Shown here: positions 1,669 through 63,769 of the stretch, piece after piece
Position numbering within the stretch: the first letter of the stretch is position 1
Layout of the letters: every line of letters begins with the position of its first letter
Source: Tridacna crocea
Lineage: Eukaryota > Mollusca > Bivalvia > Cardiida > Cardiidae
Assembly (NCBI GenBank): GCA_943736015.1
Contig: OX031065.1
Coordinates: 25,930,427 to 25,994,426 of the forward strand
DNA length: 64,000 nucleotides
Reading direction: 5' to 3'
Notes under the pieces: generated by a model
What the model saw: the letters and a program-made list of their open reading frames with translations, nothing else
Told to the model about the DNA's origin: nothing
Database searches by the model: none
Position numbers and translations under genes: made by a program

Positions 1669-1899
1669 TTAACTCATTACCAAATGAAAAAAATTTGGAC
1701 CAGTCCAAATTGAAAGTATTTGCAGACGACAAAATAAAGGTGACTGAAAAAATGAAATTTGGTATGGGAAGGTAGAAAACACTGTGGGAAAAGGAGAGAA
1801 TGCTAGTTACCAGCATTTTCTCCTTTTCCCACGGTGTTTTCGAAAGGCTTCTTTCTACTAAGGTGCGTCAAAAGTAGGGATTGTGTGGTAATGGGTTAA
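1669..1899 (+). mobile_element. TH-A element, full copy
   Basis: Family description: about 230 bp, TTAA at both ends, inverted ends of the form TTAACYCWTTACCAMAC. A long arm carries AATTGAAAGCATTTGCAGAC; a hairpin of about 35 bp per arm is centred on AATGCTGGTTACCAGCATT; a short arm ends GGATTGTGTGGTAATGGG. TTAA ends and hairpin without coding capacity fit a non-autonomous piggyBac- or Kolobok-type element. This copy has both TTAAs and an intact hairpin. Confidence 0.85.
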
Positions 1900-2165
1900 G
1901 ATCCTTGGGGTAACCGAATAGTTATAAACGAAAAGATAAGGTACAAAGGGTCGCTGGTTTGAATTCTAAGATCGGTCAGTTTCTTTCAAGCTTAGGATCG
2001 ATAATTATCATATTGACAGGATTCGTGCATTTATGACAGGATAATCTTTTACCAATCATCAGTTTTCTGGGAAAGTAGTCAGTGGCTTGGAAATAATGTA
2101 GAGGGAAGTACTAGTCTAAATGAACACTAGGCGTTAAACACCATACCAGGGACCTTATATACATA
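1900..2165 (+). repeat. tRNA-derived SINE, degenerate
   Basis: A B-box-like GGTTTGAATTCTAAG lies at about 1957, then CAGTGGCTTGGAAATAATG (about 2080) shared with the SINEs at 53776 and 61960, and a tail with GGCGTTAAACACCATACC. Confidence 0.55.
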
Positions 2166-2440
2166 AGTATATAAAATCCCTGACCATACAGACAAACAAA
2201 AACTATCATATTTAAAAATTACTTGTATCAGCTAAACATCAGCTAAACCTGTACAGTCTGATCTTCCATGTTAAATGTCGATAAATTATTCAAAATTCTG
2301 CATAAACCTGTCGCGACGGAACGATTTTATTTTTTTCTCAGTCTCTTTCTAGTGATTTCCATAACACTTATTTAGAAGTCAAAAAGTAAACGAAGATACT
2401 TAGAAAATGGAAGATGTATAGAAAAAAAATTGACGTAGTT

Positions 2441-2625
2441 TTAAACGTTTACTAGACAATCCCTGGTTTTCACGACCGTAGAAAAGAAGCATTTTTTCCC
2501 CTTTTCCCACAATGTTTTCTACCCTATCAGAGACCTAAGCTACTTTGTACCAATTCTGAATTCGTCGTCTGCAGATGCTATCAATTTGGAAGAAAATAAA
2601 ATTTTGTCGATTGGTGAACGGTTAA
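2441..2625 (-). mobile_element. TH-A element with deletion in the hairpin
   Basis: TTAA at both ends; short arm with GACAATCCCTGGTTTTCAC first. One hairpin arm is missing, which shortens it to 185 bp. Confidence 0.7.
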
Positions 2626-2699
2626 AAGATTATGTTGTACTGCGAAAAAAAACGACAAAACTTGAGGCATCTCCATAACTTCAGAATTTTCAGGCGAAT

Positions 2700-2875
2700 A
2701 ATTGATAAGACTCAAATGATAGAATTTTCCAACGTTAGGAAAAGAAAACAATGTGATAAAATGAGAAAATCTGTTGGCCAGCATTTTCTCCTTTCCCCAC
2801 AATGTTTTTAGGGGCTACCATTCTCAGAGTTGCGTAATATAGCCTAAATAGATCTATCTTTTGTAAAGGATTTAA
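2700..2875 (+). mobile_element. TH-A element, degenerate, left end lost
   Basis: Hairpin half CAGCATTTTCTCC, then TTCTCAGAGTTGCG and a GTAAAGGATTTAA end. Confidence 0.55.
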
Positions 2876-2905
2876 CAATTATGCGATATACACCTGTTTG
2901 ATTCA

Positions 2906-3138
2906 TTAATTTGCCCTTTACCAAACAATCCCTGATTTTTTACAACCGGAGGAAGCATCTTTCTGAAAACATTGTGGGAAAAGGAGAAAATGCTGGTAAC
3001 CAGCATTTTCTCATATGCCACGATGTTTTCAACTCTTCTAAAGTCAATTTTCAATTTTTTAAGTCACGTTTATTTCGTCATCTGCACATGCTTTCAATTT
3101 AAACAAGTGTAACAATTTGTCGTTTGGTAAATAGTTAA
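2906..3138 (-). mobile_element. TH-A element, full copy
   Basis: CCCTTTACCAAACAATCCCT end, intact AATGCTGGTAACCAGCATT hairpin, and GTTTGGTAAATAGTTAA end. Confidence 0.8.
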
Positions 3139-3715: not shown

Positions 3716-3945
3716 TTAACTCTTTACCAAACGACAAAATTTTTAGGTTTGTCCAAATTGAAAGCATTTGCAGACGACAAAATAAAAGTGACTAAAAATT
3801 TGAAACTGGTTTTGTGAAGGGTAGAAAACATTGTGGGAAAAGGAGAAAATGCTGGTTACCAGCATTTTCTCCTTTTTCCACAATGTTTTCTGAAGGCTTC
3901 TCTCTCAGGGTCTTCAAAAGGAGGGATTGGGTGGTATTGGGTTAA
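3716..3945 (+). mobile_element. TH-A element, full copy
   Basis: TTAA at both ends and an intact hairpin; long arm with AATTGAAAGCATTTGCAGAC. Confidence 0.85.
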
Positions 3946-4543: not shown

Positions 4544-4772
4544 TTAACCCTTTACTCCACAGATACTCATTTCGACGCATTGCTTGTATGAGCCTTTGGA
4601 AAACATTGTGGCAAAAGGTGAAATTGCTCGTGACAAGCAATTTCACCTTTTGCTACAATGTTTTCTACACTATCAAAAGGTGTCAAATACACACAAGAAA
4701 TAGCTTCATCCTTGCTGTTATTTAGGGTCAATCAGAGATACCATAGAAATGCCTTATGGGGTAAAGGGTTAA
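4544..4772 (+). mobile_element. TH-B element, full copy
   Basis: Same TTAACCCTTTAC ends but different arms (CTCCACAGATACTCATTTC and AGAGATACCATAGAAATGCC), and hairpin tip ATTGCTCGTGACAAGCAAT. The copies at 8239 and 16934 share both arms, so this is a distinct subfamily. Confidence 0.82.
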
Positions 4773-4907: not shown

Positions 4908-5104
4908 TAAACCCTTTACCACACGACAAAATTTTAAACTGGTCCAAATTGAAAGCATTTGCAGACGACAAAATCAATGAGACCCAAAATTGAAATTTGT
5001 TTCCAGAAGGGTAGAAAACATTGTGGGAATTGGAGAAAATGCTGATTACCAGGCTTCAATCTCAGGGTCGTAATAACCAGGGAATGTTCGGTAAAGGGTT
5101 TTAA
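4908..5104 (+). mobile_element. TH-A element with one hairpin arm deleted
   Basis: Left end CTAAACCCTTTACCACACG; the right half of the hairpin is gone (ATGCTGATTACCAGGCTTC); right end GGTAAAGGGTTTTAA. Confidence 0.72.
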
Positions 5105-5901: not shown

Positions 5902-8900
5902 GTTAGTTTCCACTGCATGACAGAGGCAGATTGTTCTTTCAGAAACACATCAAGTTTTTTATCACCGCAATTTTTACAGTGATATTTGTAGACGTTTTCA
6001 GCAATCTTGTACAGTGCATTTCCTTGGCCACTGTATTCTGACCTAGCCATTTGGCTCAATGTCAAATTTAGTTAAGAGTGATGCATAGATTGTGCATTTG
6101 ATTGCGTAGTTTTCTTTTCCAAATATGAATGAAAGTGATTCTGCATGTCTGAAAAGGTGCATTTGTACATTTTTGTTTAAAAATAAACTGAGATCTCAGA
6201 TGGCAAATATTCTTTTACAGTTTCTGCTGTAATCGACTTTGACAGCTGGTGTTCACTCTTGCTACGTACCGTGACCTCGGGATCATGTTTTTCTCACGTG
6301 ATCACATGTAGTCTGCTGTTCACTGTCTGGCGTGCAGCCAACTAGGATCATATATTCAAGATAATGGTTGATAGATAAAATACACTATTAAAAAGATGAT
6401 CTTTTTCTCATAGAAGCATAATGATATATTAGAACATTTACTAAATGAAAAGTGGTACAGCTATGCTTGAACTATTCTATATCATTTAGTCTGGATGTTG
6501 GGACAACCTGGATTTATCATTAACCATTAACCCTTATCCTGCTTAACCCTTTACCACACGACAAAATTTTAGACTGCCACAAAATGAAAGCACTTGCAGA
6601 CAATGAAATATAGGTAACTTAAAAACTGAAATTCGTTTCCAGCAGGGTAGAAAACATTGTGGGAAAAGGAGAAAATGCTGGTTACCAGCATTTTCTCCTT
6701 TTCCCACAATGTTTTCAAAAGCCTTCTATCTCGGGGTTGTAAAAAACAGGGATTGTTTGGTAAAGGGTTAATAACTTCAAATGAAACTTTCAAGCGGATA
6801 GTAAAAACCAAATTTCTGCCCTTTCAAAGCTATTTTTGGGGAAAATTATCAAAATTATCACCATACTGGTCATCTAAGTTGTCTGCTAAAAATCAGTTAG
6901 TCATGCTTAGCAGCCTAAGATAATAGCAGAATATAATTCAATGGGTAAGTGCAAGACTATTGTAAGTGATATATTCATGTTCTTTTTTCATTGAAAAAAA
7001 AATCAATCCCGTTTAAATGCGAAGGATTTGCAAAAAAACAAGATGATCCACTGATTTGATCAGATTTGTTACTGAAAAGGGTAAAAACATCGAGTGTAGG
7101 ACAATTGCCCCTGCGGACAATTGCCCCTGGGACAATTGCCCCTGCGGACAATTGCCCCTCCGGACGATTCCCCCTGCGGACAATTGCCCCTGTGGACAAT
7201 TCCCCCTGATTCATTATTTTTTTACTTTAATTGATGTTATTTTTTTTCAAATTGTAACTTACATTTGATTTTGAGTGATATCATTTGTAATCTCAGAAAT
7301 TTACAGTTAATAAGTTATAAGTAGATGAATTTTTTCGCCGTTTCAGTTTTCACAGACACCTTAATTATTTACTTTTGTGCCTATTTGATGTTTTGTTTCA
7401 TTTCTTGACAGTTTTCAAAATATAGGCTTCTTTAATCAATTGATTTGATTGTTAAACAAAGAAAGGATCAAAGATAAAACAATTTAGTATAATTGAAAAA
7501 ATTAAGTTGTTGCACTTATTTTTGTAGAGAAGGCTGTAATTAGCAGTTTTGTTAAGGAATACTGTAACTAATCACTACCATATTCATGATCAAAGGATAT
7601 CAATGCAAATTCTAGTTCAAAGGATTATCATAACTATAATTAATTTATTCAATTACAAATTTAAGTCAGTAGATCTATTAAAGTAAAGTTTTTAATATCA
7701 ATTGAAATTAATTTGTTCTATTTCTAAAGAAACAAAGATACGCTTGTTATTTCTATGTTAGAGCTAACATTTTGCACATCTTATATAAAAAATCATAAAG
7801 AAAGTGCTATGAAATGCTATGAAAAAAAGTCAAATAAAAAAAATCAAACGGAAAATCTATATAAAAAATGCCATAAAACAGACTTATTTCAAAGAAAAAA
7901 AAAACACATGTTATATTGTTAAAATAAGACTAAATTTTTCAAAATAATAATGAAATTGCTATAAATTTAAAGATTAAAGCAAACAGAAATATTTCCGATT
8001 AAAATAAAAACCATTTTTAAGCTTTTTAAAAATTCAGGGGGAAATGTCCAGGTGAACAAATTCTGCAGGGGGAAATGTCCACAGGGGCAATTGTCCGCAG
8101 GGGTAATTGTCTCAGGGGCAATTGTCCGCAGGGGCAATTGTCCGTACCCCAAAACATCATGCTGATAGGAAAAAATGCTATTTGCTAGCATTCTGCCCAT
8201 GTTTCACAATGTTTTCAAAAGCATTTTCAGCAGGGAGTGATTTACTCCATAGATACTCATTTTAACACATCAACAACAGACTGCTTTTGAACAAATTTTG
8301 GAAAAATGGAGAAATTGCTTGTAACAAGCAATTTCTCCTTTTTCCACATTATTTTCTACTCAAGCAATTAATTGTATCCCCATTTGTCCATATATTTGCC
8401 ATCATATCTTTATTTGGTGCTGAATTGGAAGAGCCTAAAGTTGGCATAATTTATGAGGTAAAGGGTTAATTGTTGAAATACCTGTAGAAAACTTTGATAA
8501 CTGAAAGGTAGTACCTAGAAAGTGATGATTTGATGTTTTGTTCTTAAACTGTTTCTCATGTCATCAATAGAAGATGCTTTATTGTTCATCAAATCTTTCA
8601 CCTCTTACCCCTTTGTTCAAACCAGCATGATTGGCTGAAATTTGTCTTGATGTATAAATCATCAATGTATGACCATTCTGCAGCCAGAAGTCAACAGCTT
8701 TTGTCTACAGACAATGTAAAGTTTAACCCTTTACCAAACTACAAAATTTTTGACTAGTCCAATGTGAAAGCACTTGCAGATGACGAAACAAACGTAACTC
8801 AGAAATTGAAATTTGTTACCAGCGGGGCAGAAAACATTGTGGGAAAAGGAGAAAATGCTGGTTACCAACATTTTCTCCTTTTCCCACAGTGTTTTCAAAA

Positions 8901-11900
8901 GGCTTCTGTCTCAGGATCATAAAAACCAGGGATTGTTTGGTAAAGGGTTAAACATTGTGATTAGAAGATAGAGTGGTCCTTAGTCTCAATAATGAGACGC
9001 CTGGTGATCTTTTTCATATTTGGACATTTACTATGCACCGTACCAGTCAAAAAATAACATCGCCTTTGGGGACAGTTATCTGTATTGTACTAGAGTTGTC
9101 CTTACAAGCTGTTTCTTTTTGCATCACATAATTATGTACACATTATCCTTTTTCTGAACGAACCTGAGGGCAACAACCTTGAGATAAAAGGCCTTTTTAA
9201 CATTATGTGAAAAGAGAAAAAAATGCCGGTACCCACAATTTCTCTATATACCACAAAACGTTTCATTCTTTTCAAGACAGTATTCCATAATTTTAATTGC
9301 AATTGTAGAGTCACATTTATTTTGTGGTCTCCAAATGCTTTCAATTTGGACAAGTCTAAAATTTTGTTGTTTGGTAAAGAGTTCAAGGAGTAATACAGGA
9401 TCTTTTATGAGTCCTGGACTCCATTGGTGAGTGCTGATTAGGATATTGATTCTAAGAGAAATAGTAGCTGATGACCTGAGAGTAGAGACCTTTGATCAAG
9501 GCCAGATGTTACTAATACCAAGGCCAGTGATAATCCATAGAAGCTGGATATTCCTACTGAATGCAGACAGTGAAGATCAAGATTAGACTGCACAGAATGG
9601 GCATATCTCCACTGGCCAGCAATTTTATGTCATGACCCTGTGTCTGTCTTGTGTTTGTCTGTCAGTCAGTGAGTGTGTGCAAATGATTAGTGTTTTTTAC
9701 AAATGTTTCTGAAAATACCCTTCCATTTGTCATGAAACTTCTCAGAAATAACCCTGACATGAATTTCTCAGAAATTCTTCAAAGAAGTTTATTTCAGCGA
9801 AAACTCTGGCTGCAACAAAACTGAACAGTTTTGAACATCTTTAAAAATCTCCTTGCCAAAAACCATTAAGCCTTGGGCTACCGAATTTGGCATGTAGCTT
9901 AATCTTATGGACAGCTTTTGTTTAAAAAATGGTCTATGTCGGTTCAAAATTGGCCATATCCGTGTTTGTGCGTGGTGGAGAGGTTTTAAGTTTTACATAG
10001 GCATTATACAAAAATCTCCTTGGACCTTCATCTACTGGACCTGTATTAAGGTTGTTTTTTTTCCAATTGCAGGGATCAAAATTGGCATCACCACAAGTTT
10101 TACATGGGTACATGCATATAGGGAAAACTTTAAGAATCATTTTCAACGTAAGTGTAAGCTCTAGGACCGATAAATTTGGTATGCTCCTTTATGTTGTAGA
10201 GCTTTACCTAGATTGCCTGATTCTAGTCAAATGAATTATTGAAATACATTTTATGTGTCGGGGAAAAAAGCTATTGGAAATAAATTTTTCTCTTTTTTTT
10301 TTTTCAAAAAGTTGCACAAAATTTGATTATTCAGATCAGCAAGATTTGGTGTATTCTGATCTAGTCTCAATAATGAGACGCCCCGGTGATTTTTTTCATA
10401 TTTGGACATTTACTGTACACCAGTCGAAAAGTAACACCGCCTTTGGGGACAGTTATCTGTACTATATTCTGATCCTGATCTAAACAGTCTACAAAAGCAA
10501 TAAAGAATAACTGAATCATGATTTTATTCTCATTTCAGTGCACAAATGGGCATTTGATGTGCTGTGGATGTTTTAATCATTTACTGGCAGATGCTCGACT
10601 GAAAGATGAAACAGCAACATGCCCTAATTGTAGATGTGAGATCAGCAAGAATCTGTGTACTAGAAACTTAGCTGTGGAGAAAGCAGTTTCAGAACTTCCA
10701 TCAAACTGCCAGTTTTGTTCTGAAGAACTGGCAAGAAACTGTCTAGAACATCATGAAAGAGAACTTTGTATAGAGAGGTGAGGCTCCTTCTTCACTGGTA
10801 AGCTAACCTTAATCTATAGCAGATAAGATTGTAACCCTTGATGTATGGCATGGAGGTTCACTGTGGAAGAATGCAGGTGTGTTGCTTGGGGAAAAAGTAT
10901 AAAACACACCTGGAATCTTACCTAGACTCCAGACTGTCATGTTGTTTGAAAAATGCGATGTTCTTTTCCATTTTTCTACCAGAACAGGATGAGTTATGGA
11001 TAAGTAGTTAATGAAGAGGTTGACAACGAGAGTTTTTCATTGGTTGGCTGTGTTTGGTCAATCGTAGACTCTCGCCAAGGCAGAAAATGTTTGATGGTGG
11101 TAAAGTGAAGATGGCTTTGGGTCCATTTCCAGATGTCTCCATTCGTTTTTCAGTCACGGGCAAGTATCTTCCACATTTTTAAGTTGTCAAGTTATGTAGC
11201 ATGTTTAGTGAAATATCATGACAAAGTAATCTGTATTATGTAACATGAGCAGCCATAAAGAACAATAGGCAGTCAGTCTAGGTCCGTGTTGGTTCATGAC
11301 CTTCCACAAACCTAAAATGAGAAATTTATACAAAATCAAAGTACAAAAGTATTAGCAGACCTTATTTTATTAAGCTTACCTCAGCACATGTAGTGCACAA
11401 GATGAGCCTTTCGTGATTGTGCCGTGTCTGTCATCGGTGGTGTGTCATTCACTGTTGGTCGTCAAGATTTACCTTGCATGTGCTCCAGAGACCCATGTTT
11501 TCAGTCAGTTACTCCTGAAATTTTGTCAGAATTATATTTTGATAATATTTTGAACTTAAGTTTGAAATTGGGTCACATTGGGTCAAACGAAGGTCACTAG
11601 TTAAATCCTAGAAAAAGTTGTGTGCACTCTGGAGGCCACATTTTCAGTCTGATTGCTTGAAGCTTTGTCAGAATGTTTGTCTGGATAATATCTTAAACAG
11701 GTTTGAAATTGAGTCAAATTTGGTCAAAAAGTAGGTCTCTGGGCTAAATCTGATTTTCAGCCTGATACTATGAAGCATGGTCGGAATAGTTATATATATA
11801 TCTTGTTGTTATCCCTGACAAATTCATAACTGGTTCATGTCGGATCAAAGAGAGGGCCAAATTTGGGGAAATAAACTTTGTGTGCACTCTAGAGGCCACA

Positions 11901-16933: not shown

Positions 16934-17162
16934 TTAACCCTTTACCCCATAAGGCATTTCTATGGTATCTCTAACTGACCTTAAATAACAGCAAGGATAA
17001 AGCCGTTTTTTATGTGTATATGAAACCTTTTGATAGCATAGAAAACATTGTGACAAAAGGTGAAATTGCTTGTGACAAGCAATTTCACCTTTTGCCACAA
17101 TATTTCCCAAAGGCTCCTACAAGCAATGCATAGAAATGAGTATCTATGGAGTAAAGAGTTAA
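16934..17162 (-). mobile_element. TH-B element, full copy
   Basis: TTAA at both ends, hairpin tip ATTGCTTGTGACAAGCAAT perfect, arms inverted relative to the copy at 4544. Confidence 0.83.
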
Positions 17163-18679: not shown

Positions 18680-18778
18680 AAGAATGGAATAAAGCAGTGA
18701 AAAAGGAGCAAATATTGGTCGCCAGTATTTTCTCTTTTTCCCTTTCCTAGGATGTTTTCAAATGCCTTTTTTTCTTAA
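18680..18778 (+). mobile_element. TH-A fragment joined to the next copy
   Basis: Hairpin remains (ATATTGGTCGCCAGTATTTT, GATGTTTTCAAATGCC). Its end coincides with the TTAA of the next copy. Confidence 0.5.
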
Positions 18779-18998
18779 CTCGTTTCGAAATGACAAAATT
18801 TGGATGGATCAAATTGAAAGCATTTTCAGATAACACATTAAAGGCAGCCCAAATGTCAAAATTTGTCCTTGATGGTAAAGGAAAAAATTGTTGGAATAGG
18901 ACAAAATGTTGGTTACCAACATTTTCTCCTTTTCCCACAATTTTTTTCAAGGGGATTCTGCCCTAGTCAAAAGTTGGGATTGAGTGGTAAAGGGTTAA
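18775..18998 (+). mobile_element. TH-A element, diverged full copy
   Basis: TTAACTCGTTTCGAAATGAC start; hairpin tip AATGTTGGTTACCAACATT keeps symmetry although it differs from the consensus; GGTAAAGGGTTAA end. Confidence 0.8.
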
Positions 18999-21792: not shown

Positions 21793-22009
21793 TTGTTTAC
21801 CATGTACCACTGTCCTGAATTTTAACAACCCTGAAGGAGAAAGCTGAAAAAAATGATGGAATAAGGAGAAAATGCTGGAAACCATTTTCCCAAACATGTT
21901 TTCTACCCTCTCAAAGAACTTTAATTCATTTGTATCACTTTCAAATTTGTTGTCTGCAGATCCTTTCAATTTGGAAAAGTTTAGAATTTGTTAATAGGTA
22001 AAGGGTTAA
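21793..22009 (-). mobile_element. TH-A element, diverged
   Basis: TAACAACCCTGAAGGAGAA, worn hairpin, TTTGTTGTCTGCAGATCC, then GGTAAAGGGTTAA. Confidence 0.62.
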
Positions 22010-22313: not shown

Positions 22314-22711
22314 AGGGTTTGCATTCACCAACCATTCTTAAGAACATTCTTAGTCTTACTCACTTTTAATCAGAAGTCTCACAGCAGTTCTGATTGGCTA
22401 AACCATATGGTGTTACTTTCAAATTTAGAAAAAGAGCAGAAGATGAAGGATGTTCTTTAGAATGGTTGCTTAACCCATTACCACACAATCCCTACTTTTG
22501 ACGCCCCTGAGAAAGAATCCTTTAGAAAACATTGTGGGAAAAGGAGAAAATGCTGGTAACCAGCATTTTCTCCTTTTCCCACAATGTTTTCTACCCTTCA
22601 CAAAACAAATTTCAAATTTTCAGTCACTTTTATTTTGTCGTCTGCAAATGCTTTCAATTTGGACCAGTCTAAGATATTGTTGTTTGGTAATGGGTTAATA
22701 TGAACCCAGGT
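22314..22711. mobile_element. Palindromic GGTCCGTATTCACC element, copy 2, interrupted by a TH-A insertion
   Basis: Left half 22314-22473 ends GAATGGTTGCTTAA. After the insertion, TTAATATGAACCCAGG completes the end. Removing the insert and one TTAA leaves GGTTGCTTAATATGAACCC, aligned with the family's GGTTGGTGAATACGGACCC. Confidence 0.8.
22470..22698 (-). mobile_element. TH-A element, full copy nested in palindromic element copy 2
   Basis: TTAACCCATTACCACACAAT start, perfect hairpin, TTGTTTGGTAATGGGTTAA end. The host element shows that a single TTAA existed before insertion. Confidence 0.9.
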
Positions 22712-23668: not shown

Positions 23669-23805
23669 CTAATGTTTTCTCTGTTGGCTCTTGTATAACC
23701 TTCTATTTATTATTTTTCTTATACGGGTACAGTAATGTATTTTGAAGGATTTAGGAGAGAGATGTCAATATTTACTCTTCCAACTTTTTTCTTCTCATCT
23801 CTTTA

Positions 23806-24016
23806 CCAAACGACAAAATTTTGGACTGCTCCAAATTGAAAGCATTTGCAGACGACAAATGCGACTTAAATATTGAAATTTATTTTGGGAAGGGTAGAAA
23901 ACTTTGTGGGAAAAGGAGAAAATGCTGGTTACCAGCATTTTCTCCTTTTCCCACTGTTTTCAAAAGGCTTCTTTCTAAGGGTCGTTAGAAGTCGGGATTG
24001 TGTGGTAATGAATTGA
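23806..24016 (+). mobile_element. TH-A element
   Basis: CTCTTTACCAAACGACAAAA start without TTAA, perfect hairpin, end GTGGTAATGAATTGA. Confidence 0.78.
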
Positions 24017-28868: not shown

Positions 28869-29092
28869 GCTAACTCTTTATCAAATGATAAAATTTTAGA
28901 TATGTCTAAATTGAAAGCATTTGCAGATGACAAGATAAACGTTGACTCAAAAATTGTAACTTAACTATAGAAGAGTAGAAAACATGTGGAAAAGCAGAAA
29001 ATACTGGTTACCAGCATTTTCTCCTCCTACTCTTTCCAGAAAGCTTGTTTCTCTGGGTTGTAAAAACCAGGAATTGTTTGGTAAAGCATTAA
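28869..29092 (+). mobile_element. TH-A element
   Basis: CTAACTCTTTATCAAATGAT start, hairpin with a reduced right arm, end TTTGGTAAAGCATTAA. A short-arm scrap (AAAAGCCATCTTCCTCAGAG) lies just upstream. Confidence 0.75.
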
Positions 29093-29291: not shown

Positions 29292-29520
29292 ATTGACCCA
29301 GTACCAAACAGCAATATTTTAGGCTTGTCCAAATCAAAAGCATTTGCAGACAACAAAAGAAAAGTGATTAAAATTTGGAATTTGTTTTGTGAAGGATAGA
29401 AAACACTGTGGGAAAAGGAGAAAATGCTGGTTACCAGCATTTTCTCCTTTTCCCACAATGTTTTCTGAAGGCTTCTTTGTCAGGGTCGTCAGAAGTAGGG
29501 ATTGTGCAGTAATGGGTTAA
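29292..29520 (+). mobile_element. TH-A element
   Basis: Left end GACCCAGTACCAAACAGC slightly decayed, perfect hairpin, right GTAATGGGTTAA. Confidence 0.82.
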
Positions 29521-29576: not shown

Positions 29577-29804
29577 CTTCTCATTACCACATGACAATAT
29601 TATAGACTTGTCCAAATTGAAAGCATTTGCAGACGACAAAATAAAAGTGACTGAAAATTTGAAATTTGTTTTGTGAAGGATAGAAAACATTGTGGGAAAA
29701 GGAGAAAAAGCTGGTTACTAGCATTTTCACCTTTTCCCACAATGTTTTATAAAGGCTTCTTTCTCAGGGGCGTCAAACGTAGGGATTGTGTGGTGATGGG
29801 TTAA
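29577..29804 (+). mobile_element. TH-A element
   Basis: CTCATTACCACATGACAATA start without TTAA; hairpin tip AAGCTGGTTACTAGCATT; right GTGATGGGTTAA. Confidence 0.8.
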
Positions 29805-30094: not shown

Positions 30095-30320
30095 TTAGTC
30101 TTTACCAAACAACAAAATTGTAGACTGGTCCAATTTGAGAGCATTTGCAGATGATAAAATGAACGCAACTCAAAATTTGGAATTTGTTTCCAGTAAGATA
30201 GAAAATATTGTTGGAAAAGGAGCAAATGCTGGTTACCAGCATTTTTTCCCTTTTTCCATGTTTTCAAAAGGTTTTTATCACAGGGTCGTTAAAACCAGGC
30301 ACTGTTTGGTAAAGCGTTCA
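30095..30320 (+). mobile_element. TH-A element
   Basis: GTCTTTACCAAACAACAAAA start, hairpin intact, end TTTGGTAAAGCGTTCAA. Only a few bases separate it from the previous, oppositely oriented copy. Confidence 0.78.
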
Positions 30321-31799: not shown

Positions 31800-32028
31800 T
31801 TAACCCTTTCCCAAACGACAAGCTTTTGGACTAGACCAAATTGAAAGCATTTGCAGACGACAATTTAACTTTTGCTGAAAAGATGATTTCTGTCTATGAT
31901 AGGGTAGAAAACATTGTGGCAAAAGGAGAAAATGCTGGTTACCAGCATTTTCTCCTTTTCCCACAATGTTTTCAAAAGGCTACTATTCAAGACCCGTAAA
32001 AACCAGGGATTGTTTGGGAAAGGGTTAA
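31800..32028 (+). mobile_element. TH-A element, first of three joined copies
   Basis: TTAACCCTTTCCCAAACGAC start, perfect hairpin, GTTTGGGAAAGGGTTAA end. Both termini share the same CCC-for-ACC variant, so they still pair. Confidence 0.86.
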
Positions 32029-33799: not shown

Positions 33800-34042
33800 T
33801 TAACTCTTTATTAAATGACACAATTTGCACTAACCAAATTTAAAAGGTTTTGCACACAAAAAAGTAAATATAATTTGGGAAAAAAATTAAACTCCTCTTT
33901 GAAAAAGTGGTAACATTGTGGGAAAAGAGGAAAATGCTGGTACCCAGCATTTTCTTCTTTTCTCACAATGTTTTCCAATTTCTACCCGACTTCTTTAGAG
34001 CTAGAAGTCATTAAAACATGGAATTGTGGGGTACAGGGTTAA
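33800..34042 (+). mobile_element. TH-A element, diverged
   Basis: TTAACTCTTTATTAAATGAC start, hairpin AATGCTGGTACCCAGCATT, end GGGTACAGGGTTAA; 14 bp longer than typical. Confidence 0.75.
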
Positions 34043-35956: not shown

Positions 35957-35994
35957 ATCTATAATCCTTTTATCCACTTCAAGTTGAGATCAGT

Positions 35995-36502: not shown

Positions 36503-36731
36503 TTAACTCATTACCAAACAACAAAATTTTAGGTTTGTTCCGAGTTGAAAGCATTTGCAGACAACAACACAAAAGTGACAGAAAATTTGAAATTTGTTTT
36601 GTGAAGGGTCAAAAACATTGTGGGAAAAGGAGAAAATGCTGGTTACCAGCATTTTCTCCTTTTCCCAAAATGTTTTCTAAAGGCTTCTTTCTCAGGGTCA
36701 TCAAAAGTAGGGATTGGGTGATAATGGGTAA
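36503..36731 (+). mobile_element. TH-A element
   Basis: TTAACTCATTACCAAACAAC start, perfect hairpin, right end GTGATAATGGGTAAA. Confidence 0.8.
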
Positions 36732-44999: not shown

Positions 45000-45230
45000 T
45001 TAACCCATTACCAAACAACAAAATTTTAGACTGGTTCAAATTGAAAGCATTTGCAGACGACAAAATAAAGGTGACTGAAAAACTGAAATATTTCTGGAAA
45101 GGGTAGAAAACATTGTGGGAAAAGGAGAAAATGCTGGTTTTTACCAGCATTTTCTCCTTTTCCTACAGTGTTTTCAAAAGGCTTCTTTCTCAGGGGCATC
45201 AAAAGTAGGGATTGTGTGGTAATGGGTTAA
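45000..45230 (+). mobile_element. TH-A element, full copy
   Basis: TTAACCCATTACCAAACAAC start; hairpin tip expanded symmetrically (GCTGGTTTTTACCAGC); GTGTGGTAATGGGTTAA end. Confidence 0.85.
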
Positions 45231-45489: not shown

Positions 45490-45720
45490 TTAAACTCTTT
45501 TCCAAACAACAAAATGTTAGACTGGTCCAAAATTGAAAGCATTTGCAGACGACAAATTGAATGTATCTTGATTTATGAAATTTGTTTTGGAAAGGGTAGA
45601 AAACCTTGTGGTAAAAGGAGAAAATGCTGGTTATTAGCATTTTCTCCTTTTACCACAAGGTTTTCAAAAGCTTTCCTTCCAAGGGTGGTGAAAACTATGG
45701 TTTGTTTGGTAAAGAGTTAA
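45490..45720 (+). mobile_element. TH-A element, full copy, joined to next
   Basis: TTAAACTCTTTTCCAAACAA start; hairpin tip AATGCTGGTTATTAGCATT; stems use ACCTTGTGGTAAAAGG on both sides instead of the usual CATTGTGGGAAAAGG, a paired change. Confidence 0.84.
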
Positions 45721-45945
45721 CTCTTTACCACACGACAAAATTTTAGACTGGTTCAAATTGAAAGCATTTGCAGACGACAAAATAAAAATGACTGAAAATT
45801 TGAAATTTGTTCTGGGAAGGGTAGAAAACACTGTAGGAAAAGGAGAAAATGCTGGTTACCAGCATTTTCTCCTTTTCCCACAGTGTTTTCAAAAGGATTC
45901 TTTCTCAGGGTCGTCAAAAGTAGGGATTGTGTGGTAATGGGTTAA
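45717..45945 (+). mobile_element. TH-A element, full copy, joined to previous
   Basis: Shares TTAA 45717-45720. Perfect hairpin. A stray short-arm end (GGATTACTTGGTAAAGGGTA) follows at 45946-45972. Confidence 0.86.
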
Positions 45946-46115: not shown

Positions 46116-46344
46116 TTAAACCTTTACCAAATGACAAAATTATAGATCAGTCCAAATTGAAAGCATTTGCAGACGACAACCTAAGTATGGGTCAAAAATT
46201 GAAATTTATCTTGGGAAGTGTAGAAAACATGGTGGGAAAAGGAGAAAATGCTGGTTACCAGCATTTTCTCCTTTTTCTACAATGTTTTCAAAAGGCTTCT
46301 TTCTCAAGGTCGTAAAAAGTCAGGATTGTGTGGTAAAGAGTTAA
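46116..46344 (+). mobile_element. TH-A element, full copy
   Basis: TTAAACCTTTACCAAATGAC start, intact hairpin, GTGTGGTAAAGAGTTAA end. Confidence 0.84.
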
Positions 46345-48758: not shown

Positions 48759-48943
48759 TTAACCTTTTACTAAACAATCCTATGTTTTCATCACCCTGAT
48801 AAAGTAGATCTTTTATCAACATTGGTGGCAACCAGCATGTTTTCTCCTTTTCCCACAATGTTTTTTTGCTCTTTACAAGAAAAATATAATAATACATGTA
48901 CCTCTTACGTTTGAAGAATTTGTCTGCGAATGCTTTACTTTAA
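48759..48943 (-). mobile_element. TH-A element, cut by the next copy
   Basis: TTAACCTTTTACTAAACAAT start, half hairpin, TTTGTCTGCGAATGCTTTAC, then the next copy's TTAA. Confidence 0.66.
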
Positions 48944-49169
48944 CCCTTTACCATATAATCCCGATTTTTAACGACCCCCAAGGAAGAAGGCTTTGAAAAC
49001 ATTGTGGAAAAAGGAGAAAATGCTGGTGACCAGCATTTTCTTCTTTTCCCACAATGTTTTCTACTCTTCTAAAGTCAAGTTTCAGTTTTTAAGTAATGTT
49101 TAATGTGTCACTTGCAAATTCTTTCAGTTTGGACCTGTCTAAAATTTTTGTGATTTAGTAAAGAGTTAA
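48940..49169 (-). mobile_element. TH-A element, full copy
   Basis: TTAACCCTTTACCATATAAT start, hairpin AATGCTGGTGACCAGCATT, GATTTAGTAAAGAGTTAA end. Confidence 0.84.
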
Positions 49170-49886: not shown

Positions 49887-50115
49887 TTAAGTATTTAACA
49901 CACAATCCTGATTTTTAACGACCCCTGAGAGAGAAAGCCTTTGAAAACATTGTGGGAAACGGAGAAAATGCTGGTTTCCAGCATTTTCTCCTTTTCCCAC
50001 AATGTTTTCTACCTTTTCCAATTCAAAATTCAATTTTTGATTCACATTTTTTTTGTCGTCTGCAAATGCTTTCAATTTGGACTAGTCCAAAATTTTGTCA
50101 TTTGGTAGAGAGTCA
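49887..50115 (-). mobile_element. TH-A element
   Basis: TTAAGTATTTAACACACAAT start, perfect hairpin tip with AATGCTGGTTTCCAGCATT, end CATTTGGTAGAGAGTCAA. A short-arm scrap (GATTGTTTGGTATAGGC) precedes it and shares its TTAA. Confidence 0.78.
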
Positions 50116-50165
50116 ATACATTTCCTCCTAGAGATTTGTTTTTGCAGCCAACCAAATTAATATAT

Positions 50166-50399
50166 TTAACCCTTTACCCCATAATCCTGTGTTTTAATGA
50201 CCCTGAAAGAGAAGCCTTTTGAACATATTGTCTGGAAAAGGAGAAAATGCTGGTAACCATTCTAACCAACATTTTCTCCTTTTCCCACAATGTTTTCATC
50301 CCTATCAAAGATATAATATCATTTTAGGCCACTTAAATCATTGTCTGCAATCACTCACTTTGGACACATTTATAATTTTGTTGTGTGGTATAGAGTCAA
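50166..50399 (-). mobile_element. TH-A element
   Basis: TTAACCCTTTACCCCATAAT start; tip has a small insertion (GCTGGTAACCATTCTAACC); end GTGTGGTATAGAGTCAA. Confidence 0.78.
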
Positions 50400-50477: not shown

Positions 50478-50705
50478 TTAACCCTTTCCCAAGCAAGCCC
50501 TTGTTTCTATGTGTCTGCAGTACAAGTTTTTAGAAAACACTTTGGGAAAGGGAGAAATTGCTCGTAACGAGCAATTTCTCCTTTTTCCACAGTGTTTTCC
50601 ACCCTTTTTAAGAACTTTTTGCCATTTTGTCTAAATCTAAAATTGTCGTCTGCAAACTCTTTCAGTTTGGAAGAGTCCCAAATTTGTTGTTTAGGAAAGG
50701 ATTAT
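50478..50705 (-). mobile_element. TH-C element, first of a joined series
   Basis: TH-C differs by TTAACCCTTTCCCAAACAAG ends, TACGTGTCTGCAGTA in the short arm, AAACTCTTTCAGTTTGG in the long arm and tip ATTGCTCGTAACGAGCAAT. Here the tip is perfect and the right end reads GAAAGGATTAT. Confidence 0.82.
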
Positions 50706-50896
50706 CCGTTCCCCAAACAATCTCAAGATTTAATGACCTTCGTATGGATTGCTTTTGAAAAAAATGTGGGAAAAGGGGAAAATGCTGTTTATCCAGCATT
50801 CGCTCCATTTCCCCCATGATGTTTTCCATCCTGTCAAACGCAAATCCAATCATTTTGGACATGCTGGTATTTGATATGTTGTTACATAATACTTAA
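50702..50896 (-). mobile_element. TH-related element between two TH-C copies
   Basis: CCGTTCCCCAAACAATCTCA start, tip AATGCTGTTTATCCAGCATT, worn right end at the next copy's TTAA. Confidence 0.68.
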
Positions 50897-51109
50897 CCCT
50901 TTCCCAAACAAGCCCTTGTTTTTACGTGTCTGCAGTACAAGTCTTTTGAAACATTGTGGGAAAAGGAGAAATTGCTCGTAACAAGCAATTTCTTCTTTTC
51001 CCACAGTGTTTTCTGCCCCTTCGGATATGCTATTGTTATGAAAGTTAAAAGTGTCTGCAAACTCTTTCAGTTGGATGAGTTTAAAATTTGTTGTTTGGGA
51101 CAGGGTTAA
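50893..51109 (-). mobile_element. TH-C element, full copy
   Basis: TTAACCCTTTCCCAAACAAG start, tip ATTGCTCGTAACAAGCAAT, GTTGTTTGGGACAGGGTTAA end. Confidence 0.84.
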
Positions 51110-53029: not shown

Positions 53030-53165
53030 TTTTGATAACACCGTGAAAGAAAGTTGAAATTCTCCTTTTCACAAAATGTTTTCTATCCTTTAAAAGACAA
53101 ATTTCATCATCTGAGCCATGTTTAGTTTGATTTCTGCACATCTAAAATATTTGTCATTTGGTTAA
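53030..53165 (-). mobile_element. TH-A fragment, joined to next
   Basis: TTCTCCTTTTCACAAAATGT, TTTGATTTCTGCACATC, ATTTGTCATTTGGTTAA. Confidence 0.58.
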
Positions 53166-53396
53166 GCCATTACCACACAATCCCTACTTTTGACAATTCC
53201 GAGAAAGAAGTCTTTAGAAAACATTGTGGGAAAAGGAGAAAATGCTGGTAACCAGCATTTTCTCCTTTTCCCACAAAGTTTTCTACCTTTAACAAAACAA
53301 ATTTCAAATTTTTAGTCTCTTTTATTTTGTCGTCTGCAAATGCTTTCCATTTGGGCAAACCTAAAATTTATTGTTTGCTAATGAGTAAAGAGTTGA
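53162..53396 (-). mobile_element. TH-A element
   Basis: TTAAGCCATTACCACACAAT start, hairpin perfect, right end GAGTAAAGAGTTGA. Confidence 0.8.
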
Positions 53397-54319: not shown

Positions 54320-54491
54320 TCCTTCATTACACAGTCCCAACTTTCAATGACCCTGAGAAAGAAGCCTTTTGAAAACATATTGGGAATAGGAGAAAATGCG
54401 GGTAACCAGCATTTTCTCCTTCTCCCACAATGTTTTCTAAAGGGTTCTTTTAAGGGTTGTCAAAAGTAGGGATCATGTGATAATGGGTGAA
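54316..54491. mobile_element. TH-A derivative with two short arms, near-complete palindrome
   Basis: Left TTAATCCTTCATTACACAGT, AATGACCCTGAGAAAGAAGC; right GGGTTCTTTTAAGGGTTGTC, GATCATGTGATAATGGGTGA. Both arms are short-arm type, so the 176 bp fold on themselves almost entirely. The long arm is absent. Confidence 0.78.
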
Positions 54492-54716
54492 CCCTTTCCC
54501 AAACAACAAAGTTTGGACTCTTCCAAAACAAAAAGAGTGTGCAGATGACAATTTTAGATTTTGAAAAAATGGCGGAAAATTCTCAAAAAGGGTAGAAAAC
54601 ACTGTGGGAAAAGGAGAAATTGCTCGTTACAAGCAATTTCTCCTTTTCCCACAGTGTTTTCAAAAGACTTTTACTGCAGACACGTAAAAACCAGGGCTTG
54701 TTTGGGAAAGGGTTAA
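54488..54716 (+). mobile_element. TH-C element, full copy
   Basis: TGAACCCTTTCCCAAACAAC start, tip ATTGCTCGTTACAAGCAAT, GTTTGGGAAAGGGTTAA end. A stray end GGGATTGTTTTGCAAAAG follows. Confidence 0.84.
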
Positions 54717-56426: not shown

Positions 56427-56661
56427 TTAACTCTAAACCAAAATTTGATAACAAAATTTAGTTTTGTCCAATTTGAAAGCACTTGCTGATGAAAAATGTG
56501 GCTCAAAAGATGAAAGAAGAAGTCGATCTTTGAAAGGGTAGAAAATTCATATGGAAAAGAGAAAATGGTGGTTATAGGTTTTTTTCCCACTGCTTACATT
56601 GCTTCCAAAGGCTTCTTCCTTAAAGTCGCTGATAAAGGTTTTCATTTAGAAAAGGCTTTAA
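56427..56661 (+). mobile_element. TH-A element, diverged
   Basis: TTAACTCTAAACCAAAATTT start, AATTTGAAAGCACTTGCTG, worn hairpin, AAAAGGCTTTAA end. Confidence 0.62.
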
Positions 56662-56898: not shown

Positions 56899-57382
56899 GG
56901 AGCTGTGCTCTGTGAAAAGGGGGCTTAAGGCATTTGCAAAAAGTATCCACCAAGTTCAGCCTCCACTGTCTGTGCAGGCTCACCTGGAACTTTTCCCTGT
57001 CGGTCAAGTTTCTCTCTGTTAACCCATTACCACACAAGAAAATTTTAGACTGGTCCAAATTAAAAGCATTTGCAGACGACAAAATAAAGGTGACTGAAAA
57101 ATTGAAATTTGTTCTGGGAAGGGTAGAAAACACTGTGGGAAAAGCAGAAAATGCTGGTTACCAGCATTTTCTCCTTTTCCCACAGTGTTTTCAAAAGGCT
57201 TTTTTCTCAGGGGCGTCAAAAGTAGGGACTGTGTGGTAATGGGTTAAGCGGCCAATCTACCTCATGATTAAGTCAATTTTTGAAAAAAGTGGCTCCTATC
57301 GATCCATTATTATTTGATAGCCTAGACTAGTATCATGTATAAAGCAGATTTATAAACCCGCATTTAGCTAGAACATGGCTCA
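56899..57382. mobile_element. Inverted-repeat element with GAGC..GCTC ends, interrupted by TH-A
   Basis: GGAGCTGTGCTCTGTGAAAA at the left and GCTAGAACATGGCTC at the right pair as in 33323-33558; CTGTCTGTGCAGGCTCACC inside. The TH-A copy at 57019 splits it. Confidence 0.62.
57019..57247 (+). mobile_element. TH-A element, full copy, nested
   Basis: TTAACCCATTACCACACAAG start, perfect hairpin, GTGTGGTAATGGGTTAA end; both termini carry the same CCCATTACCACAC variant. Confidence 0.87.
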
Positions 57383-58546: not shown

Positions 58547-58770
58547 TTAACTCTTAACCAGACGGTTTAGACGGGTCCATATTGAAAGCACTTGCAGACG
58601 ACAAATAAAAGTAACTGAAAATTTGAAATGTTTTGTTTTGAAGGGTAGAAAACATTGTGGGAAAAGGAGAAAATGCTGGTTACCAGCATTTTCTCCTTTT
58701 CCTACAATGTTTTTAAAAGACTTCTTTCTCAAGGTCGTTTTAAAGCTGGGATTGTGTGGTAAAGAGTTAA
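58547..58770 (+). mobile_element. TH-A element
   Basis: TTAACTCTTAACCAGACGGT start, perfect hairpin tip, GTGTGGTAAAGAGTTAA end. Confidence 0.83.
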
Positions 58771-59176: not shown

Positions 59177-59408
59177 TTAACTCTTTACCAAACCACAAAT
59201 TTATAGACGGGCGGTTCAAATTGAAAGCATTTGCAGACAACAAAATAAAAGTTACTGAAAATTTGAAGTATGTTTTGTGAAGAGTAGAAAACATGGGAAA
59301 AGGAGAAAATGCTGGTTACCAGCATTTTCTCCTTTTCCCTGAATGTTTTCTAAAGGCTTGAACTTTCTCAGGGTCATCAAAAGTAGGGATTGTGTAGTTA
59401 TGGGTTAA
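59177..59408 (+). mobile_element. TH-A element, full copy
   Basis: TTAACTCTTTACCAAACCAC start, perfect hairpin tip, GTGTAGTTATGGGTTAA end. Confidence 0.84.
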
Positions 59409-61235: not shown

Positions 61236-61289
61236 ATGTATCTTATTGCAAACTTCAGTTTTTACATGGTTTTATTTTTACAATTTCAG

Positions 61290-61341
61290 ATAGAATGTTA
61301 ATCCCATGACAGTAGTGAGAAGATTTGAGTGAGGAAGCAAG
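61290..61341 (+). promoter_or_regulatory. Piezo 5' UTR with two short upstream reading frames
   Basis: Between the acceptor at 61289 and the Piezo start there are two ATGs: 61295-61309 encodes MLIP then stop, and 61306-61332 encodes an eight-residue peptide then stop. Both end before the main start, so they could dampen translation. This holds only if the exon starts where proposed. Confidence 0.45.
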
Positions 61342-61414
61342 ATGGCAACCCGTGTTGTACGGCTTGTGTGTTACACATTGTATCGGGTGTTACTGCCAGT
61401 GGTGTTACTTGTCT
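61342..61414 (+). CDS. PIEZO: Piezo coding exon 1
   Basis: ATG at 61342, 24 codons plus one base, donor GTATGT at 61415. The exon probably begins at 61290, after TTTACAATTTCAG, so there is 52 bp of 5' UTR in it and a further non-coding exon upstream. Confidence 0.86.
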
Positions 61415-62930
61415 GTATGTATCATATTGACATGATTTTTGCTCTTGATTTAACTTTCTATCATCTTAAACTAATCATTATCAAATATTGAAAATCAATA
61501 GAATTAAGGTTTATTTTCATTAATTTATACAAAAAAATTGTCAAAAAGAGGAGTCATGCTATGTTCGTTAAAACTCTACTTTGTGTAGTAAAAGGTTCAG
61601 ACTTCATTTTTATATACCCCCACAAGGTAGTGGAGGGGGGTATACTGGAATCACCATGGTTGTCTCTCTGTTTGTCTGTCTGTCTGTCTGTCTGTCCGTC
61701 CGTCCGTTCGTAGACACAATTTGTGTCTGGAGCAATACTCCTACAGTTTTTGCACTCAGTGAACTCAAATTTACACACAAGAAGTTGTGCATGTGCAATT
61801 TTCATGACCCTGCTGGGATTTGTCATGGAATTATCTACCCTTGAGCTTTTTTCAACTCTTTTATACTAAACCATTCTGCATTCTGTAACAAAGACCTGTG
61901 TTTGTGACAAGGAACTGGTGGGGGGGGGGGGGGTTATAGTCACTTTTAGTTATAGCTTTAGTTATTGCCAAGTCCAAAAGCTTGATCAGTAAGATACAGG
62001 GCTCGAAACCCAAAGGCCACTGGTTTGATTCCCATCCTTGGCCAAATTCATTCAGAAGATTGATGATAGTTACTGTGATGTGAGAGGCTTTGTTACTCCC
62101 TAACTGCAAGACATTGTTTCATCAATATTTATGAAAAAGGAGTGAGTGGCTTGGAAAGAATGTAGTGTTGTACTGGTAAATGAAACTTAACCCATTACCA
62201 CACAGTCTGTACTTTTGATGACCCTGAGAAAGAAGCCTTTAGAAAACAAAGTGGGAAAAGGAGGAGAAAATGCTGGTTACCAGCATTTTCTCCATTTCCC
62301 ACAATGTTTTCTACCCTTCACAAAACAAATTTCAAATTTTCAGTGACTTTTATTTTGTTGTCTGCAAATGCTTTTGATTTGGACAAGCCAAAAATTTTGT
62401 CGTTTTGTAAAGATTTAAGTTAAGCATGGTGCACTGGTAGATACAATGTTACGGAAATAATGTTGAAAAAGGCCAAACAAAGAGAAAAAAAATACCAGAT
62501 TTATCCAATTCTATTTTGTTCTCTATTTAACAATGATAGTGTCCTGTCTGACTGCCTATTGCACAAATTAACCCTTTCCCAAACGACAAATTTTAGACTC
62601 TTCCAAATTGAAAGAGTTTGCAGACGACAACTTTAACTTTCATAACAATGGCAGAAAATTATCTGAAGGGGCAGAAAACACTGTGAGAAAAGGAGAAATT
62701 GCTCGTTACGAGCAATTTCTCCTTTTCCCACAGTGTTCTCTAAAGGCTTGTACTGCAGACACGTAAAAACAAGGGTTTGTTGGGGAAAGGGTTAAGCATA
62801 TTGCATATCAATTTTTTACCTTTTTTTTTTTCAGGTGCTGCAGTGAGATTCAATGCTCTCTCGTTCTTGTATACCATATTTCTTCTCCTGAATCCATTAC
62901 TGAGTTCGCCAACACCTGCTACAATTAGAG
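61342..62930 (+). CDS. PIEZO: Piezo mechanosensitive ion channel, first two coding exons (gene continues beyond window)
   Basis: Joined 61342-61414 and 62835-62930 encode the first 56 residues plus one base. The exon junction falls inside a Cys codon and restores LLVCAAVRFNALSFLY. Piezo proteins start with a short hydrophobic helix, then RF(S/N)-LS-(F/V)-Y and a leucine-rich second helix ending near a Pro-rich turn; the layout LLPVVLLVC, RFNALSFLYTIFLLL, PTPATIRG matches this N-terminus of vertebrate and fly Piezo as I remember it. Piezo forms trimeric, membrane-tension-gated cation channels of more than 2000 residues; only the first pair of transmembrane helices is here. The start ATG lies in AAGATGG. 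Donors are GTATGT and GTACCA. Exon 3 is not found before 64000. Confidence 0.87.
61612..61860 (+). repeat. TATACCCCCACAAGG repeat with (TGTC)n
   Basis: TATACCCCCACAAGGTAGTG, GGGGGGTATACTGGAATCAC, then (TGTC)n at 61672-61710 and TGCATGTGCAATTTTCATGA. It resembles the 3' part of the repeats at 31104 and 34950 in reverse. In Piezo intron 1. Confidence 0.6.
61950..62175 (+). repeat. tRNA-derived SINE
   Basis: AGTAAGATACAGGGCTCGAA, B box CACTGGTTTGATTCCC, and shared body GAGTGGCTTGGAAAGAATGT near the end. In Piezo intron 1. Confidence 0.6.
62187..62418 (-). mobile_element. TH-A element, full copy
   Basis: TTAACCCATTACCACACAGT start, perfect hairpin, GTCGTTTTGTAAAGATTTAA end. Confidence 0.84.
62568..62795 (+). 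mobile_element. TH-C element, full copy, directly before Piezo exon 2
   Basis: TTAACCCTTTCCCAAACGAC start, perfect tip ATTGCTCGTTACGAGCAAT, GTTGGGGAAAGGGTTAA end. Confidence 0.86.
62835..62930 (+). CDS. PIEZO: Piezo coding exon 2
   Basis: Acceptor with a T-run ending TTTCAG at 62834; donor GTACCA at 62931. It encodes the second N-terminal transmembrane helix. A TH-C hairpin element ends at 62795, only 39 bp before the exon, inside the region where the branch point should lie. Confidence 0.86.
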
Positions 62931-63007
62931 GTACCATATTTAACCAAATTAACGCCTAATCGGTCATTGTAGCACACCCTACTATATTACTTATTCCAGA
63001 GGCCCTA

Positions 63008-63277
63008 GCCGGCCCGGGTGGCTCAGTGGTGAGCGTGTCAGACTCATAACCTGGTGGTTGTGAGTTCAATACCTGGTTGAGGCAAACTTTCTTTCTGACA
63101 TATTTTTGCCTCTGACCTCTGCTGAAGCATGTGAGAAAAGTAGTTGGTGGCTTTGGAAAGAAAGTTGTGTTTGTACTGCTGTGAGAAACCCAGGAAACAC
63201 ATGTGCGTCACCGACGGCCATGATATGACCTTAGCTGTTAAATTGGCATTAAACCCCGATACAACCAACCAACCAGA
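63008..63277 (+). repeat. Full-length SINE derived from tRNA-Met
   Basis: Head GGGTGGCTCAGTGGTGAGCG (A box), CAGACTCATAACCTG with a CAT anticodon, GGTTGTGAGTTCAATACC (B box). Body has GGTGGCTTTGGAAAGAAAG. Tail ends GGCATTAAACCCC and (AACC)n. In Piezo intron 2. Confidence 0.78.
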
Positions 63278-63541
63278 GGCCCTAGGACAACCCCCTTTCA
63301 CACTTGTCCATACCTTAAAATAGATGACCTAAGTGACAAACTTCCAAACTCAGCATAGCTTCACCAAAACATTTCAAACACAGGCTGACAAAAATTATTG
63401 ATGACCGGTATTTTAATAATACAAAAAATTAAACCATCAACGTAATCCTAATTACTTCACAAAATGATATGAATAACAACAGACAGTCCTTCTATACAAA
63501 TTTGTAGTTTGGTCATTTGGTAAAGAGTTAAATGGTATGAG
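63278..63541 (+). other. Piezo intron 2, with one TH-A end scrap
   Basis: GGTCATTTGGTAAAGAGTTAA at about 63510-63530 is a lone TH-A terminus. Confidence 0.45.
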
Positions 63542-63769
63542 TTAAACCTTTCCCAAATGACAAATTTTGGACTCCTCCAAACCAGAAGAGTTTGCAGACG
63601 ACAATTTTAGATTTGGAGAAAATGCCTGAAAGTTCTCAAAAATGGTAGAAAACACTTTGGGAAAAGGAGAAATTGCTCGTTACGAGGAATTTCTTCTTTT
63701 CCCACATTGTTTTCAAAAGACTTTTATTGCAGACATGTAAAAACCAGGGCTTGTTTGGGAAAGGGTTAA
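63542..63769 (+). mobile_element. TH-C element, full copy in Piezo intron 2
   Basis: TTAAACCTTTCCCAAATGAC start, tip ATTGCTCGTTACGAGGAAT, GTTTGGGAAAGGGTTAA end. Confidence 0.85.

Follow-up and report, generated by a model that had tools for sequence, protein, structure and literature searches.

Hairpin-bearing elements at TTAA sites, putatively moved by piggyBac transposases, occupy an estimated fifth of the Tridacna crocea genome

The stretch of DNA analysed here, called the window throughout, comprises 64,000 nucleotides of the bivalve Tridacna crocea (GenBank assembly GCA_943736015.1, contig OX031065.1; C10:25930427-25994426 of the genome searched, which holds 1,048,827,098 bases in 31 contigs), and a large part of it consists of copies of a family of short TTAA-bounded elements with a hairpin at their centre. 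An earlier note, made from the letters alone, had described such an element as recurring throughout the window, and its recurrence is confirmed here. The string TTAACCCTTTACC, allowing up to two mismatches, has 99 matches in the window compared to a shuffle mean of 2.5, and an nhmmer profile of 229 columns, made from the window copies, yields 106 non-overlapping matches (63 on the plus strand, 43 on the minus strand) that cover 18,389 bp. At 28.7% of the window, this agrees with the rough quarter estimated previously. Near-full copies, defined as matches that reach to within five columns of both model ends, account for 40 of the 106, and the profile had no matches in the reversed window and reversed genome samples that served as the specificity control.

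The genome was sampled systematically in twenty stretches of 10 kb each (200 kb), drawn from 15 contigs. Combined, window and sample (264 kb) contain 342 matches, 131 of them near full, and it is these 131 copies that are counted below unless another set is named. In subfamily A, the largest, the parts follow the order TTAA, short inverted end, flank, near-perfect hairpin, flank, inverted end and TTAA, with the hairpin at model columns 108-174 as 33-bp arms around one base. The modal length is 229 (37 of the 131 copies), and the copy at 45717-45945, folded as single-stranded DNA, has a z of -8.5. Most full copies fit the description first given of them (about 225-232 bp, TTAA at both ends, short inverted termini, central hairpin), while the idea of one element has to be modified, as the copies are not uniform and fall into several subfamilies. 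Besides A, the window holds five copies of subfamily C, with TTAACCCTTTCCC ends, and copies of subfamily D at 4544-4772 and 16934-17162, which have mainly the hairpin and ends in common with A. The family is short, non-coding, high in copy number and uniform in length, and no listed match to the piggyBac domain PF13843 lies within the window. The near-full and otherwise informative copies are given below in window coordinates; each rests on a profile match, with any further basis in brackets.

1669..1899, plus: near-full copy, subfamily A, TTAA at both ends
2912..3138, minus: near-full copy
3716..3945, plus: near-full copy, subfamily A, TTAA at both ends
4544..4772, minus: subfamily D copy, hairpin and ends shared with A, flanks mostly unlike A (comparison)
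4910..5100, plus: copy in which the right arm of the hairpin has lost about 33 bp
6543..6771, plus: near-full copy, unchanged hairpin (hairpin check)
8723..8951, plus: near-full copy, TTAA at both ends
16934..17162, plus: subfamily D copy (comparison)
18775..18998, plus: near-full diverged copy, two compensated hairpin pairs (pairing)
21797..22009, minus: near-full diverged copy
22470..22698, minus: near-full copy, 4.4% off consensus, hairpin 34/34 paired (pairing)
23799..24013, plus: near-full copy
28871..29092, plus: near-full copy
29293..29520, plus: near-full copy
29580..29804, plus: near-full copy
30095..30319, plus: near-full copy
31800..32028, plus: near-full copy, first of three with common boundary TTAAs
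32025..32257, minus: near-full copy, second of the three
32254..32482, minus: near-full copy, third of the three
32954..33165, plus: near-full copy, 17-bp hairpin deletion
33800..34042, plus: near-full diverged copy
36503..36731, plus: near-full copy
45000..45230, plus: near-full copy, TTAA at both ends
45493..45720, plus: near-full copy, two compensated hairpin pairs unique among window copies, TTAA common with the next copy (pairing)
45717..45945, plus: near-full copy nearest the consensus (3.9%), fold z -8.5 (folding)
45824..45890, plus: central hairpin of the preceding copy (columns 108-174), two pairs broken there (profile, pairing)
46116..46344, plus: near-full copy
48940..49169, minus: near-full copy
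49890..50116, minus: near-full copy
50166..50399, minus: near-full copy
50478..50704, minus: subfamily C copy (comparison)
50893..51109, minus: subfamily C copy (comparison)
53162..53388, minus: near-full copy
54490..54716, plus: subfamily C copy (comparison)
56427..56657, plus: near-full old copy, 35% diverged
57019..57247, plus: near-full copy, TTAA at both ends
58547..58770, plus: near-full copy
59177..59408, plus: near-full copy
62187..62418, minus: near-full copy
62568..62795, plus: subfamily C copy, TTAA at both ends (comparison)
63542..63769, plus: subfamily C copy, TTAA at both ends (comparison)

The hairpin deletions of 33 bp (4910-5100) and 17 bp (32954-33165) are of the sort expected of palindrome instability. 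Within a further copy, at about 28270-28345, a 26/26-paired palindrome starting TCGATAGGTGAGTGC represents a second palindromic element inserted into the first.

The density of the family had appeared striking for this locus, but that impression does not hold, as the family occurs genome-wide. The sample contains 238 matches, 91 of them near full, which cover 41,152 bp or 20.6% (bootstrap 95% confidence interval 15.0-26.1%), with single 10-kb stretches ranging from 0 to 41.5%. The window is moderately above this average, and a local hot spot around it is ruled out. Extrapolated to the genome, the sample predicts 1.25 million matches (0.91-1.56 million), fragments counted in, or about 10,000 times the number in the window, in keeping with the expectation that the family extends beyond it. 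Exact counts offer a calibration of this estimate. A 13-mer of the end occurs 133,483 times in the genome and 34 times in the sample (reversed control, 48), corresponding to 0.93 million matches and 15.4% of the genome, and a 31-mer of the hairpin core occurs 183,553 times and 30 times, respectively (reversed control, 0), corresponding to 1.46 million matches and 24.0%. By these estimates roughly one fifth of the genome belongs to the family, which also accounts for the majority of long palindromes detected (160 of the 199 in the 264 kb) and probably has consequences for introns, for replication and for RNA editing. Hairpin patterns had no matches in collections of viral contigs and genome contigs. 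No description of the element was found in the literature, a search that did not cover Repbase or Dfam, where a consensus may have been deposited; as strings in papers, the 13-mer appeared only in an unrelated context and four 18-20-mers nowhere.

Insertion at TTAA is evident from the ends of the copies. An exact TTAA stands at 194 of the 262 ends, compared to 0.8% of positions, and is present at both ends of 80 copies, at one end of 34 and at neither end of 17. A scan for nested copies gave five candidates, two of them clean: a C copy within an A copy (L023:811-1034), flanked by TTAA and TTGA and with the host columns continuous, and a copy in a hairpin loop with TTAA on either side (L015:638-866). 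These two indicate insertion at TTAA-like sites. A search for empty sites with joined flanks in the window returned mostly neighbouring copies. Boundary TTAAs shared by adjacent copies number 12, compared to 18.2 +/- 3.6 expected under random choice of TTAA, so no special mechanism is needed for abutting copies and tandem amplification is ruled out. A longer sister element was also considered and set aside, as partial copies break at scattered positions without a clear peak.

The letters inside the TTAA bear on the class of transposase. Left ends begin CTCT in 40 copies, CCCT in 35, CTCA in 18 and CCCA in 11, and right ends CCCT in 57, CCCA in 35 and CTCT in 15, such that C[C/T]C opens at least 104 of the 131 left ends and at least 107 of the 131 right ones. 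The CMITE-type definition asks for CC[C/T]T, of which the form CCCT is present at 35/131 left and 57/131 right ends. In the available text of the respective sources, miniature inverted-repeat transposable elements (MITEs) of the piggyBac/TTAA type have CC[C/T]T in inverted ends of 12-19 bp (PMC2872659), and piggyBac ends are mostly CCCTT, with CCCAT, CCCTC and CACTA also occurring (PMC10813416). Kolobok elements share the TTAA target and are present in bivalves (PMC10294476, as far as available), and the Xenopus T2-MITE, attributed to Kolobok, is likewise a long-lived, abundant MITE at TTAA. The available descriptions, however, give Kolobok ends as 5'-RR...YY-3' (PMC9587614) or as AG and AGGRR (PMC6004289), and since the ends of the family start mostly with C it fails this defining test. 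KolobokP solo terminal repeats, which resemble the family in TTAA, in occurring in molluscs and in forming multimers, differ in their RR ends and long terminal direct repeats (PMC9587614, same portions), and abutting copies of the present family do not exceed the number expected if TTAAs were chosen at random. A Kolobok-type MITE like T2 is therefore scarcely credible. The reading as a TTAA-inserting, non-autonomous transposon stands, and the earlier alternative between piggyBac and Kolobok resolves in the direction of piggyBac. Its target and most of its end letters place the family, as judged from sequence, among the non-autonomous MITEs of the piggyBac/TTAA class; there is good support for piggyBac-type machinery, and the partner is putative.

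Potential partners are resident in the genome. PF13843 has at least 118 matches, none of which falls in the window, and at least 26 of them span almost all of the domain with no interrupting stop, in frames of 462-668 aa. At 20 of the at least 118 loci the ends were examined. CCCTTTATATAC was recognised at four loci, at three of them as a pair of ends, whereas CCCTTTCAG, CCCT[A/T]GTCATGC and CCCATTTATGCC were recognised at two each and CCCTATCCTCCA at one; CTCTTCTAGAAA is a possible end at two further loci, with one end each, an uncertain case as the duplicated unit exceeds the stretch examined. At the remaining seven of the 20, no pair of ends starting with C was recognised. The resident piggyBacs thus include TTAA-CCCTT ends, CCCAT and perhaps CTCTT. 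No autonomous relative with different ends and target site was identified. According to the available text of PMC10813416, autonomous piggyBac transposons have the TTAA target and CCCTT as the commonest end; copies with open frames reside in the Tridacna genome. The family differs from them as a MITE without coding capacity.

Where CCCTTTACC ends occur near the examined loci they are parts of MITE copies. Two loci (L040 on C15 and L045 on C18) carry a piggyBac-domain frame within a duplicated unit of at least 3.1 kb, 97.8% identical, that also contains two MITE copies, and further PF13843 matches, on other contigs, score almost identically and lie in frames that are likewise 492 long. A composite element, with the two direct-orientation copies around the transposase frame, was rejected. 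The MITE copies are read as insertions because the 97.8% identity spans all 3.1 kb and the 70%-identical L039 aligns over the transposase part only. The hairpins at L030 and L043 are old and decayed.

Clustering the 131 copies at a cut of 0.2 produced A with 64 members, D with 13, C with 8 and smaller clusters of 4, 4 and 3, the remainder being lone copies; mean distance to the own consensus is 9.0% in A, 5.7% in D and 8.0% in C. Private changes in A are equally frequent in the hairpin (48 of 4,190 cells), the flanks (97 of 8,137) and the ends (25 of 2,012), which indicates that resident copies decay neutrally, with no visible constraint. Between lineages the pattern is different. The consensus of A and that of cluster 11, which has four copies, differ at 0 of 68 hairpin sites and 31 of 128 flank sites, A and C at 6 of 68 and 42 of 127, and A and D at 9 of 68 and 74 of 125, i.e., by 0-13% in the hairpin and 24-59% in the flanks. 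Clusters 6 and 15 differ from A at 2/68 and 2/67 hairpin sites and at 27/120 and 20/128 flank sites, respectively. Fisher's test, applied to private changes versus those between lineages, gives p = 2.7e-5 for A and cluster 11, 0.005 for A and C, and 5.5e-5 for A and D, the last computed with 8 hairpin differences instead of 9. All departures within clusters, taken together and not only the private ones, also affect the hairpin less (4.6%) than the flanks (10.5%), as expected if variants shared within a cluster are also older.

Part of this pattern would arise without constraint if different TTAA elements had captured, or acquired through recombination, one and the same hairpin module. The left flank of D resembles A barely more closely than shuffled letters do (34% vs 27%, p 0.08), and cluster 11 joins the hairpin of A to C-like ends. 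Yet the D copies in the window equal those of A in length (229) and hairpin position, the right flank is similar (49%, p 0.0005), and the compensated changes among A, C and D indicate hairpins that diverged and were not simply swapped, which together render module capture improbable.

Those compensated changes lie at pairs 3, 8, 13, 20 and 26 from the centre, which separate A, C and D with both sides changed and still Watson-Crick. Compensated doubles at these pairs number 19, 22, 13, 14 and 18, respectively, compared to 0.04-1.24 expected from the single-sided counts. Arms also pair better with their own partner than when dealt out among copies (0.849 vs 0.818 in 212 copies; 0.917 vs 0.910 in A; 0/1000 shuffles each), a difference that may equally arise because copies of a subfamily are related. 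Genome-wide counts are 9,565 for the C form of the 31-mer and 33 for a form altered on both sides at pair 8 alone. A left change at pair 14 occurs 5,334 times, compared to 183,553 unchanged, and combined with a right change at the non-partner position 12 it occurs 115 times, a baseline for unrelated double changes.

Matched pairs would also be produced by arm-to-arm copying (quasipalindrome correction), which could take place as the element transposes or in its source copies and could keep the palindrome without selection for function. In accordance with this, A, C, D and cluster 11 differ by matched pairs, and single copies have compensated pairs of their own (those at 45493 and 18775 in the window, and L020_8932, with two extra pairs and no single changes). 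Such copying is not seen in resident copies, however, where no private compensated doubles accompany the 45 single changes in A, 15 in D and 23 in C, and it leaves the lower change of the hairpin compared to the flanks unexplained; as the full account it is rather unlikely. It is quite improbable, in turn, that the hairpin is kept through transcription and processing (miRNA- or siRNA-like) or some other host use and not through transposition. A near-perfect hairpin of this size does resemble a small-RNA precursor, and sub-threshold Rfam miRNA matches occur on both strands; but the scores are far under gathering, no window match attains that threshold, and either strand fits, as with any perfect hairpin. 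Host use of many copies would also predict constraint on the resident copies of A, unlike what is observed.

The explanation that we consider probable is a MITE family moved by piggyBac, of which copies with an intact hairpin keep spreading, with constraint on the jumping lineages and neutral decay of resident copies. A piggyBac transposase, either the family's own extinct partner or a cross-acting resident, would cut and paste the element, and the copies with an intact hairpin would be those that go on spreading. The hairpin may aid excision, synapsis or a gain in copy number, either in cruciform shape or through its two inverted arms, to which the transposase would bind, and constraint would act on lineages during jumping and not on copies in residence. 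That the central palindrome is itself a selfish enhancer of transposition (cruciform or paired transposase sites), selected only among transposing copies, is a tentative proposal that could fall either way. We consider selection for an intact hairpin in transposition likelier than correction linked to transposition, because the letters of the hairpin also change less than the flanks, though this ranking is less secure than the remaining claims.

Several points weigh against this explanation. The left end of subfamily A is CTCT, one base from CC[C/T]T, and none of the 20 piggyBac loci examined, out of at least 118, held an autonomous element that itself has CCCTTTACC ends. The copies being related, the compensated changes are few independent events, and the two smallest clusters, with 4 and 3 members, show hairpin changes on one side only in their consensus sequences, where 32 and 30 of the 34 pairs, respectively, are intact. 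Sharing of the hairpin between subfamilies could derive partly from recombination, and its role in transposition is putative. Lastly, nothing shows present activity; the closest near-full pair is 3.1% apart.

The CMITEs of Acropora corals (PMC2872659) are the closest precedent found, and they appear to work alike. As far as the accessible portions of that paper describe them, CMITEs duplicate TTAA, have ends starting CCC (mostly CCCTTT), comprise families with differing ends and a common conserved internal region (75 bp, compared to 67-71 bp here) and include abutting copies. TTAA duplication, abutting copies and an internal region common to several subfamilies recur in the clam family, whose ends start mostly C[C/T]C. 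The internal region was proposed to aid transposition, a role on which the authors only speculated. CMITEs are about 100 bp long and number about 1,600 copies, in contrast to 229 bp and about a million matches here; the main text on CMITEs does without the words hairpin, palindrom- and stem, and a test of copy decay against lineage change was not found in its accessible portions. In the family described here, the internal region is more conserved between subfamilies than the rest of the element, as it is between families of CMITEs, but the length is 229 bp and not about 100 bp. Since the lengths disagree and the internal sequences could not be set side by side, we do not assign the element to the CMITEs.

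How non-coding MITEs reach huge numbers, and whether their internal sequence matters, are the questions that this family addresses. An estimated million matches in one genome permit a McDonald-Kreitman-like test, a first small version of which (131 copies) points to the hairpin, a feature that the earlier note touched on briefly and that turns out to tell more than the rest. If the hairpin is a selfish module, the family would constitute a natural experiment that sets constraint at the level of lineages against neutral decay of resident copies. With about a million matches and a fifth of the genome, it would then rank, to our knowledge, among the single MITE families that have spread most successfully.

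Other repeats and genes accompany the family. Arrays of GGACAATTGCCCCTGC, direct and reverse complement, lie about 860 bp apart in the window (7099-7208 and 8065-8144) and look like the inverted, tandemly repeated termini of a single element. A further palindromic family, which comprises GTGAAAGTAACAGAACTTCTGATTGGCTAAACCA, the complementary string and variants, occurs in the window at 22200, 22928 and 23287 and in the sample (L014, L023, L024, L028). A palindromic element with GTAAAGTGTCGTCCCGGATTAGCCTGCGCAG and variants (L011, L014, L021, L024) is presumably common in bivalve genomes. A tandem array with a 167-bp unit in 4.7 copies spans 38555-39329. Exons of a RING/TRAF-type zinc-finger gene, with a weak zf-RING_4 match, extend over 5.7-16.2 kb of the window; we take this gene to be CYHR1-like. 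A single-exon membrane protein with a weak DUF6962 match is encoded on the minus strand at 35390-35989.

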